Assembly: GCF_028649455.1 (NCBI RefSeq)
Contig: NZ_JAQSIO010000004.1
Location: 124,001 to 188,000 of the forward strand
Length of the DNA stretch: 64,000 nucleotides
Direction: 5' to 3'
Origin: Curvibacter microcysteis
GTDB lineage: Bacteria > Pseudomonadota > Gammaproteobacteria > Burkholderiales > Burkholderiaceae_C
The translations under genes and the position numbers were made by a program. Positions 30,914-38,709 of this stretch are shown one piece after another (position 1 is the stretch's first letter; every line of letters starts with the position of its first letter). The notes under the pieces are model-generated. The model was not told where the DNA came from, made no database searches, and worked only from the letters and a program-made list of their open reading frames with translations.

Positions 30914-30961
30914 GGCGTTATCCTGTCGTCTCTTTTTGGCGCATTGCACAAAACTCCCCTC

Positions 30962-32485
30962 ATGGCTGACCGTTCGCCCTATGACATCGCCAAGGAAACG
31001 CTCAAGCAGCTTTCCCTGCGCAAGCTGATCCCTTCGCCTGACAACTACCAGGCCCTGTTCCACGAAGTGGCAGGCACCCGCCACGTGGTGAACTTCCCGG
31101 AAGAAGCCCTGCGCGGCATCGGCCGGGTGCTGCCTGGCCAGACCCCGGCCCAGCAGCGCCTGCTGGCCCAGTTCGATACTGCCGTCACCCAGCGCAGCTG
31201 GGTGGGCGTGCAAGCCGCCTTGGTCGGCCTGGCGACCCAACCCCTGGTCGCCACACCGGCCCACATTCAAGACAAAACCGCCATCAGTGAAGACCTGATG
31301 GCCGAGCTGCGCGAGCAAATTGCCCGCCTGGTGGAAAACATCCTGCCCATGGTGGGTGCCGACGACCCCCGCCTGCAGCAACAGGCCGAGCAGCTGATGC
31401 ACTACGCGCGCCAGCCCGCAGCCGAAGCCGCCACCCTGAAGCTGATGCTGGGCAACCTGAGCTTTCGCCTGTCTTTTGCCTCGGAAGACCAGCTCGCCAT
31501 CAAGAGCACGCTGCTGGCCTTGCTGCACCTGCTGTTCACCAACATCGGTGAACTGGCGGTGGACGACCGCTGGCTCAAGGGCCAGATCGACGCCCTGGTC
31601 AGCGCCAGCACCCCGCCGCTGACCTTGCGCCGCCTGGATGATGTGCAGGCGCGTCTCAAGGACGTGATCTTCAAGCAGTCCGAAGCCAAAGCCCGCGCCA
31701 TGGAAGCGCAGGACGAGATGAAGCAGATGCTGGCGGCCTTCATCGACAGGCTGTCCACCATGACCGAGCACAGCGGCAGCTACCAGGGCACCATCGAGCA
31801 CTGCGCGCGCCAACTGGAAAGCGCCGAAACCCTGGCCGACATCACCCCGGTGCTGCAAGAAGCCATCCAGGCCACGCGCTCCATGTCGATCGACACCCTG
31901 CACATGCGCGACGAGCTGCGCGAAATGCGCGAACGCACCGAGCAGGCCGACGCTGCCTTGCGTCGCATGCAAGAAGAGCTGGACCGCGCCAGCTCCCAAG
32001 CCCGCCACGACCCGCTGACCGGCGCCCTCAACCGCAAGGGCCTAGACGAAACCCTGAAGCGCGAGATCGCTCGCGCCCGGCGCCAGGACACGCCAATGTG
32101 CGTGGCCTTGCTGGACCTGGACAACTTCAAAAAGCTCAACGACACCCTGGGCCACGACACCGGCGACGCCGCGCTGCTGCACCTGGTGCAGGTCGCGCGC
32201 AGCGCCATCCGCCCGCAAGACAGCCTGGCCCGCTACGGCGGCGAGGAGTTTTTGGTGGTGCTGCCCGACACCGACCAGGACAAGGGTGTGGAGGTGATGA
32301 AGCGCCTGCAGCGCGAGTTGACCAAGAAGTACTTCCTCAAAGACAACGAAAAAGTGCTGATCACCTTCAGCGCCGGGGTCGCCCAGGTCGGGGCCGAGGA
32401 AGACACGGCCGAAGCCATCAAACGCGCCGACCAGGCCATGTACCTGGCCAAGCGCTCGGGCAAGAACCGTGTCGTGGCGGCCTGA
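30962..32485 (+). CDS. Diguanylate cyclase (GGEEF)
   Basis: 507 aa from the ATG at 30962. No membrane segment or signal peptide is seen. About 300 residues of alpha-helical N-terminal sequence (helical bundle, then coiled coil at about 210-335) precede a C-terminal GGDEF domain. The active site reads GGEEF at residues 426-430. RPQD at 417-420 lies exactly five residues upstream, matching the RxxD inhibitory c-di-GMP-binding I-site. It should make c-di-GMP under product feedback in the cytoplasm. The N-terminal sensor type was not recognised. Its end overlaps the phosphatase start by 17 bp. Confidence 0.9.
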   Translation: MADRSPYDIAKETLKQLSLRKLIPSPDNYQALFHEVAGTRHVVNFPEEALRGIGRVLPGQTPAQQRLLAQFDTAVTQRSWVGVQAALVGLATQPLVATPAHIQDKTAISEDLMAELREQIARLVENILPMVGADDPRLQQQAEQLMHYARQPAAEAATLKLMLGNLSFRLSFASEDQLAIKSTLLALLHLLFTNIGELAVDDRWLKGQIDALVSASTPPLTLRRLDDVQARLKDVIFKQSEAKARAMEAQDEMKQMLAAFIDRLSTMTEHSGSYQGTIEHCARQLESAETLADITPVLQEAIQATRSMSIDTLHMRDELREMRERTEQADAALRRMQEELDRASSQARHDPLTGALNRKGLDETLKREIARARRQDTPMCVALLDLDNFKKLNDTLGHDTGDAALLHLVQVARSAIRPQDSLARYGGEEFLVVLPDTDQDKGVEVMKRLQRELTKKYFLKDNEKVLITFSAGVAQVGAEEDTAEAIKRADQAMYLAKRSGKNRVVAA

Positions 32486-34112
32486 CCCAGCCCACCGCCT
32501 GAGCCGGCGCCATTGGCTGCAGGCCTTGCTGGCCAGCGCCTCTTTGCAAGCCTGGCAAGCCGGGGCCCACCCGCGCAGCGCACCAGGCCTGGCCGACCTG
32601 CCCTTTGCCTTGGGCGTGGCCAGTGGCACGCCCAGCCACCAGGGCGTGGTGCTTTGGACCCGGCTGGCCGTGGTCGACCCGCTGGACCCGCGCGTGCACA
32701 CCGTGCGCTGGGAGCTGGCCGAGGACGAGGGCTTTCAACGCATCGTGCAGCGCGGCCAGACCGAGACCCAGCAGGCCCTTGGCCACGCAGTGCATGTCGA
32801 GTTGCAAGGCCTGCCCGCCGACCGCTGGTTCCACTACCGCTTCATGGTGGGCGATGCCGTCAGCCCCGTGGGCCGCACCCGCACCCTGCCCGCGCCCGAC
32901 AGCCCGGCGGGTCGGCTGCGCCTGGCCTTCGCCTCCTGCCAGCGCTGGGAGCACGGCTACTACGCGGCCTGGCGCCATGCCGCCGCCCAGTCGCTGGACC
33001 TGGTGGTCTTTTTAGGCGATTACATCTACGAATACGCCTCGCCGCGCAGCGGCCTGGCGCCCCAGGCCGCCACGCCCATCCACCGCGTGCATGAGCTGCG
33101 CCGCGCCGTCAGCCTGGCCGACTACCGCGACCGCTACGCCCTGCACAAAAGCGACCCCGACCTGCAAGCCGCCCACGCCGCCTGCCCCTGGCTGCTGACC
33201 TGGGACGACCACGAGGTCGAGAACGACTACGCCGGCCTGCAAGGCCGCGAGGGCGCCAGCGCCGAATTTATGGCCCAGCGCGCCGCCGCCTACCAAGCGT
33301 TTTACGAGAACATGCCCCTGCCCGCCTCGGTGCTGGTGCAGGGCCTGCAAGGCCTGAACCAGGCCGATGCGCTGCGCCTGTACCAGCGCCACGCGTTTGG
33401 CCGCCTGGCGCGCTTTCATGTGCTGGACGACCGCCAGTACCGCGCCGTGCAGGCCTGCCGCAACCCCAGCGAGAGCAGCGCCGGCACGGTGCGCCCCAGC
33501 CGCTGCGCCGAGCTGCGCGACCCCAGCCGCAGCCTGCTGGGCGCGGCCCAGGAACAATGGCTGGCCCAGGGCCTGGCGCAAGACAGCCGCCCCGGCGGCC
33601 CGCGCTGGACCGTGCTGGCCCAGCAAACCCTTTTTTCACCGCGCCACTATGGTGGCGCCAGCGCGGCGGCCCAGGCCGACGAACCCACGCCCACCGACCC
33701 CTGGGACGGCTACCCCGGCGCGCGCCAGCGCCTGCTGCACAGCCTGCAGGCCACGCCACCGCGCAACACGGTGTTGATTGGCGGCGACATCCACCAGAAC
33801 TACGTCTGCCGCGTGCACGCCGACCCGGACCGCCCCGACAGCCCGGTGCTGGCCAGCGAGTTCTGCGGCACCTCGATCAGCTCGCACTCCGGCGCCACCT
33901 TGGAGCGGGCCCAGGCCTTGCAAAAGAACAACCCCCATGTGCTGCTGGCCAACCCCGAGCAGCGCGGCTACGCCCTGGTCGAGCTGAACCCGCAGCGCTG
34001 GCAGACCACGCTGATGGCGGTGGACCAGCCTGGCCGCGCCGACAGCGCGCTGCGCCCGCTGGCCCGCTTTGTCGTGGAAGACGGGCGCGCCGGCCCGCAG
34101 CGCGAGAGCTGA
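32469..34112 (+). CDS. Alkaline phosphatase D family protein (PhoD-like), Tat-exported
   Basis: 547 aa from a GTG at 32469 inside the end of the cyclase gene. No later start would retain the N-terminal SRRHWLQALLAS stretch, which resembles a twin-arginine signal. Metal-site segments of PhoD are present: VVFLGDYIYEYA, WDDHEVENDYAG, GGDIHQNYV and ASEFCGTSISS. PhoD enzymes are Ca/Fe-dependent periplasmic phosphodiesterases/phosphomonoesterases that release phosphate from organic esters. The 17-bp overlap with a diguanylate cyclase suggests coupled expression. Confidence 0.9.
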   Translation: MSWRPDPAHRLSRRHWLQALLASASLQAWQAGAHPRSAPGLADLPFALGVASGTPSHQGVVLWTRLAVVDPLDPRVHTVRWELAEDEGFQRIVQRGQTETQQALGHAVHVELQGLPADRWFHYRFMVGDAVSPVGRTRTLPAPDSPAGRLRLAFASCQRWEHGYYAAWRHAAAQSLDLVVFLGDYIYEYASPRSGLAPQAATPIHRVHELRRAVSLADYRDRYALHKSDPDLQAAHAACPWLLTWDDHEVENDYAGLQGREGASAEFMAQRAAAYQAFYENMPLPASVLVQGLQGLNQADALRLYQRHAFGRLARFHVLDDRQYRAVQACRNPSESSAGTVRPSRCAELRDPSRSLLGAAQEQWLAQGLAQDSRPGGPRWTVLAQQTLFSPRHYGGASAAAQADEPTPTDPWDGYPGARQRLLHSLQATPPRNTVLIGGDIHQNYVCRVHADPDRPDSPVLASEFCGTSISSHSGATLERAQALQKNNPHVLLANPEQRGYALVELNPQRWQTTLMAVDQPGRADSALRPLARFVVEDGRAGPQRES

Positions 34113-35911: not shown

Positions 35912-37612
35912 TCAGGAGAAGGAGTAGGTGTTGCGGCCGTTTTGTTTGGCGCGGTACATGCCCACGTCGGCGCGCGCCAGCAGGGCCCGCACCTCGGTGC
36001 CGTCGCGCGGGGCCATGGCAATGCCGATGCTGGCCTGCACCTGCACGGGCATGCCCTCGACCAACACGGGCTGCTCAAACTGGGCCTTGAGCTTCAAGGC
36101 CAGCTGGGTCGCGTCGTCCTCGCCCGCCAGGTCTTGGCACACGACGACAAACTCATCACCGCCCAGGCGCCCCACCGTGTCGCCCGCCCGCAAGGTTTGA
36201 CCCAGGCGTTGCGCCACCCCGCGCAGCACGGCGTCGCCCACATCGTGGCCCAGGCCGTCGTTGATGTTCTTGAAGTGGTCCAGGTCGACAAACAGCACGG
36301 CACAGGGACGCTGGCTTTGCGCGGTGCGATGCAGGGCCTGCTCCAGACGGGCCTCCACCATGCGGCGGTTGGGCAAGCCGGTGAGGGGGTCGTGGTGGGC
36401 CAGGTGGTCCATCGCGTGGTGGCTGGTGCGCAGCTGGGTCATTTGCTGCCAGACCTGCTCTTCCATCAAGCGGAAGCTGCGCGCCAGCTCGCCGATTTCG
36501 TCGGTGCGTTCGGTCGGCAGGGTCTGCACCCGCTGCCCCGTGCCCAGCACCCGCGTGGCCTGGGCCAGGGCCTTGAGGGGTTCCGTCACCACGCGCGACA
36601 CCAGCACGGCCAGCACGAGGGCCGCCACACACAGCAGCAGGAGCACCTGAACAATGCTGCGACCCAGCACCGAAGCCTCCCCCTCGATGGCGCTCAGCGG
36701 CTGGGCCAGGCCGAGAATCCAAAAACGGGGCTCCTGCTCGCTCCCAATCGGCAAGCGCACAAAAGCAGCCACCACCGACTCCCCCGTGCCGTCGCGGACC
36801 GACGTCACCAACTGCTGGGCTTGGCCCGACAGCAGCCGCGCTGCGTCGGGGAAGCTGTCCTGGATGTAGACCCGCTGGCCACGGTCAAAGCCGAAGGTCT
36901 GACTGGCGTCGGGGTGGACCAACCAGTCGCCCCAGCGGTTGCTCATGTAGAGCTGAAAGCCGTCGGGCAAGTCGGCCGACACCCCATGCAAAAATGCTCT
37001 CGCTGCCACTTGGACCACCAACACGCCTTGCACACCCCCCGCCGTCACCACCGGCGCGGACAGGGTGTAGCTGGGCATGGCGCTGCCCCCGATCAGGGCA
37101 TCGTCGCGGCTGGCCGCCAGCTCCGACATGTAGACCTGGCCCGCGGGCAGCGGCAGCGCCTCATAAACGTAAGGGAAGTGGCCTTTTTCCTGCAGATCAT
37201 CGTCCGCCACCCGCAGCAAACCAGTGGGCTGGCGCTGCACACGCACCCGCTCCAGGCCGTGTGCGCTGGCGCCAATCAGGCGGATTTGCAGGTAATCGGG
37301 GTGGGACTCCATCTCGGCCATGAAGGCTTGAGCCAGGGCCTGGCGTGCCGGGGCGGCAGCGGCCCCGGGCTCCAGGGCCCCCTGGGCAGCGGCCAAAGCG
37401 GCCAAGGCCACGGTGTCGCGCGAGACCGATTGCAGACTGGCCTGCAAGTGCCGGCCCAGCACTTCGGTGGTCGTCATCAGGTAGTGCTCGGCGCGCTCAC
37501 GCAACAGACCGCGGCTGGTGACAAAGGTGTAGTGGCTGGCCAAGGCCGCCGCAAACACACTGAAGGCCGCCAACAACAAACTGAGTCGAAAGGCAATGCT
37601 GCCTGGCTTCAT
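35912..37612 (-). CDS. Membrane diguanylate cyclase: dCache-HAMP-GGDEF
   Basis: 566 aa. A first membrane helix (about residues 8-27) is followed by a periplasmic Cache-like sensor domain (about 30-315) and a second helix (about 320-340). A HAMP linker (about 342-395) leads to a C-terminal GGDEF domain. GGDEF is canonical at 484-488. RAGD at 475-478 forms an I-site five residues upstream. It should convert a periplasmic signal into c-di-GMP synthesis. The ATG overlaps the stop of the upstream PotD-like gene by 4 bp, so the two are co-translated; the binding protein is the likely signal input. Confidence 0.93.
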   Translation of the reverse strand: MKPGSIAFRLSLLLAAFSVFAAALASHYTFVTSRGLLRERAEHYLMTTTEVLGRHLQASLQSVSRDTVALAALAAAQGALEPGAAAAPARQALAQAFMAEMESHPDYLQIRLIGASAHGLERVRVQRQPTGLLRVADDDLQEKGHFPYVYEALPLPAGQVYMSELAASRDDALIGGSAMPSYTLSAPVVTAGGVQGVLVVQVAARAFLHGVSADLPDGFQLYMSNRWGDWLVHPDASQTFGFDRGQRVYIQDSFPDAARLLSGQAQQLVTSVRDGTGESVVAAFVRLPIGSEQEPRFWILGLAQPLSAIEGEASVLGRSIVQVLLLLCVAALVLAVLVSRVVTEPLKALAQATRVLGTGQRVQTLPTERTDEIGELARSFRLMEEQVWQQMTQLRTSHHAMDHLAHHDPLTGLPNRRMVEARLEQALHRTAQSQRPCAVLFVDLDHFKNINDGLGHDVGDAVLRGVAQRLGQTLRAGDTVGRLGGDEFVVVCQDLAGEDDATQLALKLKAQFEQPVLVEGMPVQVQASIGIAMAPRDGTEVRALLARADVGMYRAKQNGRNTYSFS

Positions 37613-38709
37613 GCGGCCAGCCTTTCAGGGCGCTCTCCGGCCACGATGCGCTGCCACAAGCGCTCCCGGCGCGATTCGTTCTCCACCGGTTCCAGCCAGA
37701 CCAGGCGACCCGACGGGGGCACGCCCGGCTGTTCCTCCAAGGTATTGGCCAGGCCATGCCGGCGCGTCAGCAAACGGCTCATGTCCAGCGACAGCAAGTG
37801 GTTGACCCAGCGCGCAGCCAGGTCCGGGTTGCGCGCCTGGCGCGTGACGGCCCAGCAATCCAGCCAAGCCAGTGCGCCCTCGCGCGGCAAGGCATAGCCC
37901 ACGTCCAGCCCCTGGTCCTGCAGCAGCTTGAGTTGCTGGCGACCGTAGTTGGCGAACATCACGGCCACGCGGTGGCGGCGGAACATCTCAGCCGACTCTT
38001 CCGGCAAGCTGTAAAAGCCCCGCAAATTGCGCCGCAAATCGACCAAGCGCTGCGTCATCGAGCCCCATTGGGGAGCGCCGATCTGAAATGGGGACAGGCC
38101 ATGGGCCATCGCCGCCAAGGAAAAACCATGGGTCCCGCTGTCAAACGCCAAGACGCGGCCTTGCAAGGCGGGGTCCCACAGCACGGTCAGCGACTGGGGT
38201 GGCGTGCTCAGTTGACGGCGGTCAAAAATCAAACCCATCTCAGCGTAGGTGTAGGGCATGGCATACAAGCGCCCGCCCTCGGTGATGCCGGGAATCGCCT
38301 CGCGGCGCAAGAAACGGGGCAACTGAGCCGCCGCATTCGGCAGGCTGTTCAGCGGCAGCGGCGCCAGCATCTGCAGCTCGCGCAGGCGCTGGAGTTCCAC
38401 CGTGTTGGCCGCCAGCACATCGAACAGCGGCCCGCCCGTCACGGGGTCGACCAAGGCCATGCGCTGGCGCAGCGACTCGTCCGAGCCGACGATGCTCAAC
38501 TCCACCCGGGCGCCTTCACGGTCTTCAAAGGCTTTGACCACATCCGGGTCGGCGTAGCCTGGCCAGGCCAAAACACGCAAGGTCTTGGCGGGGTCTGTGG
38601 TCCGGTGCAGGGCTTGGGCCGACGCGGGCCCCCAGGCCAACAGGCCCCCTGCACAGGCTTGGGCCAGGCCCGCTTGCCAGAGTGATCGCCGCGTTGCGTT
38701 GATTGGCAT
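37609..38709 (-). CDS. PotD-like extracellular solute-binding protein
   Basis: 366 aa. The N-terminus TRRSLWQAGLAQACAGGLLA looks like a Tat or Sec signal ending near ASAQA. The mature part follows the polyamine-binding (PotD/PotF) pattern: RVLAWPGYADPDVVKAFE at the start, then FDVLAANT and a YAMPYTYAEMGLIF segment. No permease or ATPase gene is adjacent. Instead it overlaps a periplasm-facing diguanylate cyclase by 4 bp, which recalls NspS-MbaA of Vibrio cholerae. A signalling rather than a transport role is therefore inferred, with polyamines as candidate ligands. Confidence 0.87.
   Translation of the reverse strand: MPINATRRSLWQAGLAQACAGGLLAWGPASAQALHRTTDPAKTLRVLAWPGYADPDVVKAFEDREGARVELSIVGSDESLRQRMALVDPVTGGPLFDVLAANTVELQRLRELQMLAPLPLNSLPNAAAQLPRFLRREAIPGITEGGRLYAMPYTYAEMGLIFDRRQLSTPPQSLTVLWDPALQGRVLAFDSGTHGFSLAAMAHGLSPFQIGAPQWGSMTQRLVDLRRNLRGFYSLPEESAEMFRRHRVAVMFANYGRQQLKLLQDQGLDVGYALPREGALAWLDCWAVTRQARNPDLAARWVNHLLSLDMSRLLTRRHGLANTLEEQPGVPPSGRLVWLEPVENESRRERLWQRIVAGERPERLAA

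Follow-up and report, generated by a model that had tools for sequence, protein, structure and literature searches.

A PotD-type solute-binding protein paired with a dCache diguanylate cyclase as a candidate receptor for sugars or sugar acids

The inputs of many diguanylate cyclases are not known. The 64,000-nucleotide stretch of Curvibacter microcysteis DNA analyzed here (positions 124,001 to 188,000 of contig NZ_JAQSIO010000004.1, assembly GCF_028649455.1), which we refer to as the window, contains two overlapping genes, one encoding a solute-binding protein (SBP) of the PotD/PotF fold and the other, immediately downstream, a membrane protein predicted to be a diguanylate cyclase (Table 1).

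The gene pair and its conservation

The SBP scores above the Pfam cut-off for SBP_bac_8 and the sensor above that for PF21623, and in both cases fold comparison agrees with the domain search (a PotD-type and a dCache fold, respectively). The membrane protein has what defines a diguanylate cyclase, a GGDEF domain with its catalytic motif, and the domain search found no EAL domain in it; it should therefore synthesize cyclic di-GMP (c-di-GMP), which is its sole predicted output. Moreover, a Pfam search found no BPD_transp_1 permease domain anywhere in the window. These results bear out much of a preliminary description of the pair, which had pointed to the 4-bp overlap, the dCache-HAMP-GGDEF arrangement with both motifs kept (here by domain search and alignment), the lack of permease genes and an output limited to c-di-GMP synthesis. 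The SBP is probably secreted. Its twin-arginine-like start was recognized by eye, as were those of the SBPs at loci L031-L035; we take such a signal to be unusual for a Pot-type SBP. (Note that a scan for promoter and terminator patterns upstream of the SBP gene gave no match, a result that is little informative.)

Table 1. Features of the gene pair in the window
Feature	Position	Strand	Basis
Solute-binding protein, PotD/PotF fold, 366 amino acids	37609..38709	-	Pfam and fold matches
Putative signal peptide of the SBP, about residues 1-33, twin-arginine-like start	38611..38709	-	By eye
Stop/start overlap of the SBP and cyclase genes, 4 bp	37609..37612	-	Sequence
Predicted membrane diguanylate cyclase, TM-dCache-TM-HAMP-GGDEF (TM, membrane helix), 566 amino acids	35912..37612	-	Domain search; membrane helices by eye
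Periplasmic dCache sensor, residues 36-310, approximate limits	36683..37507	-	PF21623 and fold matches
HAMP domain, residues 337-383	36464..36604	-	Domain search
GGDEF domain, residues 405-561	35930..36400	-	Domain search
RxxD inhibitory-site motif, intact, five residues ahead of GGDEF	36179..36190	-	Sequence and alignment
GGDEF active-site motif, intact	36149..36163	-	Sequence and alignment

A genome scan for relatives of the window SBP gave 106 confirmed loci, of which 80 were kept (48-84% identity to the window SBP; counts out of 80 refer to these). They come from Curvibacter, Acidovorax, Simplicispira, Rhodoferax, Paraburkholderia, Burkholderia, Massilia, Aquitalea, Thauera, Dechloromonas and others, with Pseudomonas contributing three. 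The sensor gene lies directly downstream of the SBP gene, on the same strand, in 79 of the 80; this count includes L082, where the sensor is present as a truncated start, and the only locus without a downstream sensor, L073, is on a contig that stops at the SBP gene. Within the window's own family, a search matched 38 of 299 genomes, and in all 30 loci fetched, the window's included, the sensor gene directly follows the SBP gene (two of the other eight matches were weak, at 28-29%). A Burkholderia cenocepacia record also carries the pair. The preliminary description had asked whether the two genes stay together in other genomes and whether the closest homologues of the binding protein sit beside permease genes; the 80 kept loci, which are the closest, adjoin a cyclase, and only the next clade out, at about 38% identity, adjoins an ATP-binding cassette (ABC) transporter.

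Gene spacing, estimated in 75 loci (without L053, L058, L059, L073 and L082), is at most 20 bp in 71 of them, and the genes overlap in 43, by 4 bp in 29 cases. The flanking genes vary, the commonest family being present in just 18 of the 80 loci (as judged with a simple gene caller and with some contigs short), and therefore the SBP-sensor pair itself is the conserved unit. Mean pairwise identity is 58% for the SBP, 45% for the sensor and 52% for the GGDEF domain; the sensor shows no exceptional conservation. The SBP-cyclase pair is real, conserved and mostly betaproteobacterial. At L053, L058 and L059 the cyclase gene is in two frames next to an intact SBP gene, which may reflect sequencing error or decay.

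To align the cyclases we used the window protein and those of 74 of the 80 loci (75 rows), omitting L073, whose contig lacks a sensor, L082 and L099, which are cut, L093, which has a different output, and L053 and L058, whose cyclase gene is in two frames; L059 has the same split but was entered by its longer piece. All 75 carry the motif [GAS]GDE[FY], as GGDEF in 50, AGDEF in 18, GGDEY in five and SGDEF in two, and RxxD is found in 62. The Arg of RxxD is missing in the other 13, all from Paraburkholderia or Burkholderia (L060, L062, L066, L069, L071, L072, L076, L077, L079, L088, L094, L096 and L100). The output of the sensor differs at two loci that keep the SBP and the sensor input: it is GAF-GGDEF-EAL at L146 and HisKA-HATPase-REC at L093, a metagenome-assembled genome labelled Geobacter. 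Because the L093 SBP falls among betaproteobacterial sequences in the SBP tree described below, transfer or wrong binning is possible there.

Both partners were also searched for by profile in 398 Pseudomonadota genomes, with about five candidates scored per genome in each search. The SBP profile matched at E <= 1e-25 in 35 genomes; SBP loci of 376-537 bits adjoin this sensor type in 10 genomes and SBP loci of 274-419 bits adjoin an ABC ATPase in five. The nine top sensors, at 289-420 bits, are all adjacent to the SBP and fall in nine of those ten genomes; in the tenth, G535, the adjacent sensor scores 115 bits. No such SBP was found within the fetched flank of 21 loci with sensors of at most 190 bits (L168-L188). 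Note that because SBP matches below 165 bits were typed solely by crude motifs in short flanks, we restrict the term ABC-linked to L120-L123, L125, L141-L145, L149 and L194-L207. This sensor branch is tied to one SBP clade, though its family and fold are common to other sensors. The genes are paired and co-occur, which makes coupling of SBP and sensor likely.

A few kilobases from the pair, the window encodes a second GGDEF protein (30944-32485, plus strand; motif GGEEF, start codon TTG, no membrane helix by eye), whose gene is overlapped by a PhoD-type phosphatase-like open reading frame (32469-34112; by eye).

The binding pocket and the sister clade

In PotF, the pocket comprises the proximal residues S38, D39 and D247, the aromatic residues W37, W244 and F276, and the distal residues S85, S87, A182, E185, D278 and L348; among 250 PotF-like proteins W37 is conserved in 100%, and D39, E185, D247 and D278 in at least 96% (PMC8666671). 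We compared these positions by profile alignment, so the equivalences are those of the alignment. Among the sensor-linked SBPs, all 80 have His where PotF has E185, and all 79 that align there have Gly in place of D39; W244 is replaced by Ala or Gly, F88 by Glu, S85 by Asn and F276 by Trp, each in 80 of 80. W37 is kept in every one of the 79 aligned and D278 in 80 of 80. Six Pot-like SBPs, aligned likewise, all keep the Glu at E185, and three of them have Gly at D39. D247 was not taken as a discriminator, because PotD also lacks it (PMC8666671) and because its column aligns poorly. The pocket of the sensor-linked SBPs thus appears, by alignment, not to be of the polyamine type.

In a tree of 59 chosen SBP sequences, the 33 sensor-linked rows form one clade (support 100/99), whose sister consists of six SBPs of pentose-operon ABC transporters together with L145 (joint node 99/97); next outward are other ABC SBPs and then Pot-like proteins. 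The window SBP is therefore not inside the pentose-operon clade but sister to it. The long branches L148, L136, L147, L149, L145 and L206 are of unsure placement; L147 is the deepest sensor-linked row. Outside the sensor-linked clade, L148 (4527-7053, minus strand) has a 384-residue SBP whose gene overlaps that of a 463-residue GGDEF protein with a different sensor; it is probably an independent SBP-cyclase pair, and such pairs therefore probably arose more than once.

The sensor SBPs and the six pentose-operon SBPs share W49, G51, Y52, N102, T103, H194, N254, Y255 (Phe in 10 of 80), G256, Q258, Q259, W282, D284 and W286. To describe the sister operons we used the eight loci L141-L143, L194-L197 and L207, from eight genomes of six genera, with SBPs at least 71% identical to that of L142. 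All eight contain an ABC ATPase, two permease open reading frames, a short-chain dehydrogenase/reductase (SDR) resembling D-xylose 1-dehydrogenase and an IlvD/Edd dehydratase; GguC/AraD1 and an aldose epimerase are each present in seven. Of the two L142 permease reading frames, one matches BPD_transp_1 at 4e-16 and the other, without a Pfam match at 1e-8, is called a permease by position and size. Genes for IlvD/Edd, GguC and the epimerase were found in none of 20 control stretches of 19.5 kb, taken at round (not random) coordinates from five of these genomes; the controls contained a distant SDR (at most 33%) in three cases and an ABC ATPase in seven. At these eight loci a PotABCD-type ABC transporter is thus a fixed part of a pentose-oxidation-type operon, and the genes of such pentose pathways are often found together with those of putative sugar ABC transporters (PMC6336799).

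In ten further ABC relatives, with 40-47% identity to the SBP of L142, the ATPase and the two permease reading frames are present but this operon is not. Of nine non-Burkholderia matches at 30-32% to the window SBP, three annotated plasmid relatives were inspected, and all three lie among ABC genes and genes of sugar type: two have RbsD/FucU, one has altronate dehydratase, and one has gluconolactonase, mandelate-racemase-type and SDR genes.

A proposed receptor and its alternatives

We think that this SBP of transporter lineage is probably the ligand-catching half of a receptor, which would dock on the dCache domain and control c-di-GMP in response to a sugar or sugar acid. In particular, the SBP, which comes from a sugar or sugar-acid ABC-transport lineage and has no adjacent transporter, would catch its ligand in the periplasm; the SBP, loaded or empty, would dock on the dCache domain carried by the product of the adjoining downstream gene; and docking would alter GGDEF-dimer activity through HAMP, activation and inhibition both being allowed, with RxxD mediating product feedback on the cyclase. 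The ligand would be a small polyhydroxy compound rather than a polyamine, the first candidates being pentoses and pentonates (D-xylose, L-arabinose and their aldonic acids). What can be read directly from sequence is the conservation and co-occurrence of the pair, the single SBP clade, the change of output, the apparent loss of two polyamine carboxylates and the sister context; from these we infer physical contact and a ligand that is probably a sugar or sugar acid, a class made plausible by the sister operons and the shared pocket residues.

Several observations weigh against this proposal. Identity between the sister clade and the sensor-linked SBPs is only about 38%, and five sites differ between them, 50, 105, 191, 285 and 320, so the ligand may have shifted from that of the sister clade; site 50 is mostly Pro in the sensor SBPs versus Glu, Gln or Asp, at site 105 all 80 have Glu and all six have Gln, site 285 is Cys versus Asn or Thr, and site 320 is Leu versus Phe. 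The pentose-type substrate of the sister operons is itself a deduction, and their enzymes, GguC excepted (491.6 bits at L143, cut-off 340), come near but not over equivalog cut-offs: the L142 SDR scores 354.9 bits against the D-xylose 1-dehydrogenase model (cut-off 400), and the IlvD/Edd proteins of L142 and L143 score 853.3 and 870.6 bits against the L-arabinonate dehydratase model (cut-off 882), exceeding a cut-off solely for the generic dihydroxy-acid dehydratase subfamily. The neighbours of the window pair (acyl-CoA synthetase-, dnaG- and rpoD-like) are not sugar genes, and the same holds at other loci. Covariation between SBP and sensor, which bears on the interface conservation raised in the preliminary description, is no stronger than between SBP and GGDEF domain, with a ratio of 0.90-1.09 at four cut-offs in a shallow set of 74 pairs (effective number of sequences 34). 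Absences in the 398-genome searches are not exhaustive, given the few candidates scored per genome. Moreover, AgtS and AruS, an SBP and a sensor kinase encoded by neighbouring genes, gave no interaction (PMC11113362). Finally, because W37 and D278 of PotF are retained, a cationic ligand is still conceivable.

That the SBP binds a putrescine- or spermidine-type ligand and relays the signal to the cyclase in the manner of NspS and MbaA nevertheless seems improbable. Both of the carboxylates replaced by His and Gly occupy positions conserved in no fewer than 96% of PotF-like proteins (PMC8666671), the Pot-like SBPs keep the Glu at E185 even though half of them have Gly at D39, the window SBP scores 57.6 and 41.7 bits against the PotF and PotD NCBIfam equivalogs versus cut-offs of 636 and 582, and the sister transporters sit in pentose-type operons. 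The polyamine that the preliminary description had put first was accordingly downgraded in view of the pocket residues and the surroundings of the sister-clade genes. An SBP-dependent receptor for another kind of ligand (an amino acid, opine, sugar phosphate, phosphonate or other) is unlikely to a lesser degree: structural matches of the same fold include binders of agropinic acid, mannopine, glucose 6-phosphate and gamma-aminobutyric acid, and the invariant difference at site 105 fits it, whereas the pentose clade shares N102, T103, H194, N254, G256, Q258, Q259, W282, D284 and W286. A phnM-like gene (by eye; Pfam gives Amidohydro_1 only) lies near seven Paraburkholderia/Burkholderia loci. A phosphonate was set aside as a ligand in its own right, since these neighbours occur in seven loci only and the 2-aminoethylphosphonate model is absent from the four NCBIfam matches of the SBP; it is kept within the other kinds of ligand.

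We regard as least probable of all that the two proteins serve one process and never touch, the dCache domain having a small ligand of its own and the SBP being a separate scavenger. The AgtS/AruS precedent and the missing covariation signal argue for such an arrangement; against it, the pair is kept in 79 of 80 loci while its flanks change, none of the nine top sensors lacks the SBP, SBP and sensor stay together when the output is swapped, and the window holds no permease that was found. Returning to the proposed sugar or sugar-acid receptor, an extension that we offer only tentatively is that the SBP was captured once, with loss of the transporter, and now forms with dCache a portable cassette, for a sugar or aldonate of plant or algal type, that has been joined to three outputs (GGDEF, GAF-GGDEF-EAL and histidine kinase-REC). 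If the receptor is as proposed, it would be widespread and mostly betaproteobacterial, and since its ligand-catching protein is defined, a single soluble protein could be enough to identify its signal. Pairs of a PotD-type SBP and a cyclase would then not all be polyamine sensors, a transport-type SBP lineage would have turned to signalling and then been joined to several output enzymes, and decisions about surfaces and biofilms could be tied to hemicellulose-type nutrients.

Comparison with known systems

Among the open-literature matches listed, from searches not aimed at single locus tags and with subscription journals mostly outside, none describes this SBP-sensor family. With PotF and PotD of ABC transporters the window SBP shares the fold, the Trp at W37 and the Asp at D278, and its family has a Tyr at what we take to be PotF Y40; it differs by the changes at D39, E185, W244 and F88 and by having no transporter genes adjacent. 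An SBP of an ABC transporter has a permease and an ATPase in its operon, and here a sensor gene follows instead. The SBPs of the pentose-type operons (L142 type, for which we found no name) are closer, as a sister clade with most pocket residues in common, and are set apart by the five differing sites and by their ATPase, permease and sugar-oxidation-type genes.

In Salmonella, STM1987 and ArtI link L-arginine to c-di-GMP, STM1987 being a dCache cyclase that needs a periplasmic binding protein (PMC8846402). The window pair likewise joins a dCache cyclase to such a protein. ArtI is reportedly another type of SBP and is said to serve arginine transport; unlike ArtI, the window SBP has no transporter genes adjacent.

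The closest parallel in layout is NspS-MbaA of Vibrio cholerae and Sinorhizobium meliloti, in which the gene for a PotD/PotF-type SBP overlaps that of a downstream membrane protein with a periplasmic domain, HAMP and GGDEF; in the window, too, the SBP gene is directly upstream of the cyclase gene and overlaps it. MbaA has GGDEF and EAL domains, an SGDEF motif, no RxxD and, in S. meliloti, a periplasmic part of residues 24-256 (PMC9993111). The window cyclase has GGDEF and RxxD, no EAL and a sensor of about 275 residues, and the aligned cyclases rarely have SGDEF (2 of 75) and mostly have RxxD (62 of 75); a tandem GGDEF-EAL occurs, after GAF, in the relative L146. By alignment, the SBP appears to have lost the two polyamine carboxylates, E185 and D39, and so to lack the pocket expected of an NspS. 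The text of a 222-genome census of NspS-MbaA names no Burkholderiales (PMC9993111). The polyamine- or small-molecule-sensing circuit in Burkholderiales envisaged in the preliminary description therefore stands as a conserved, mostly betaproteobacterial pair with a polyamine no longer its first-choice ligand, and the pair appears to resemble NspS-MbaA in logic while several features by which that system has been described (PMC9993111) set the two apart.
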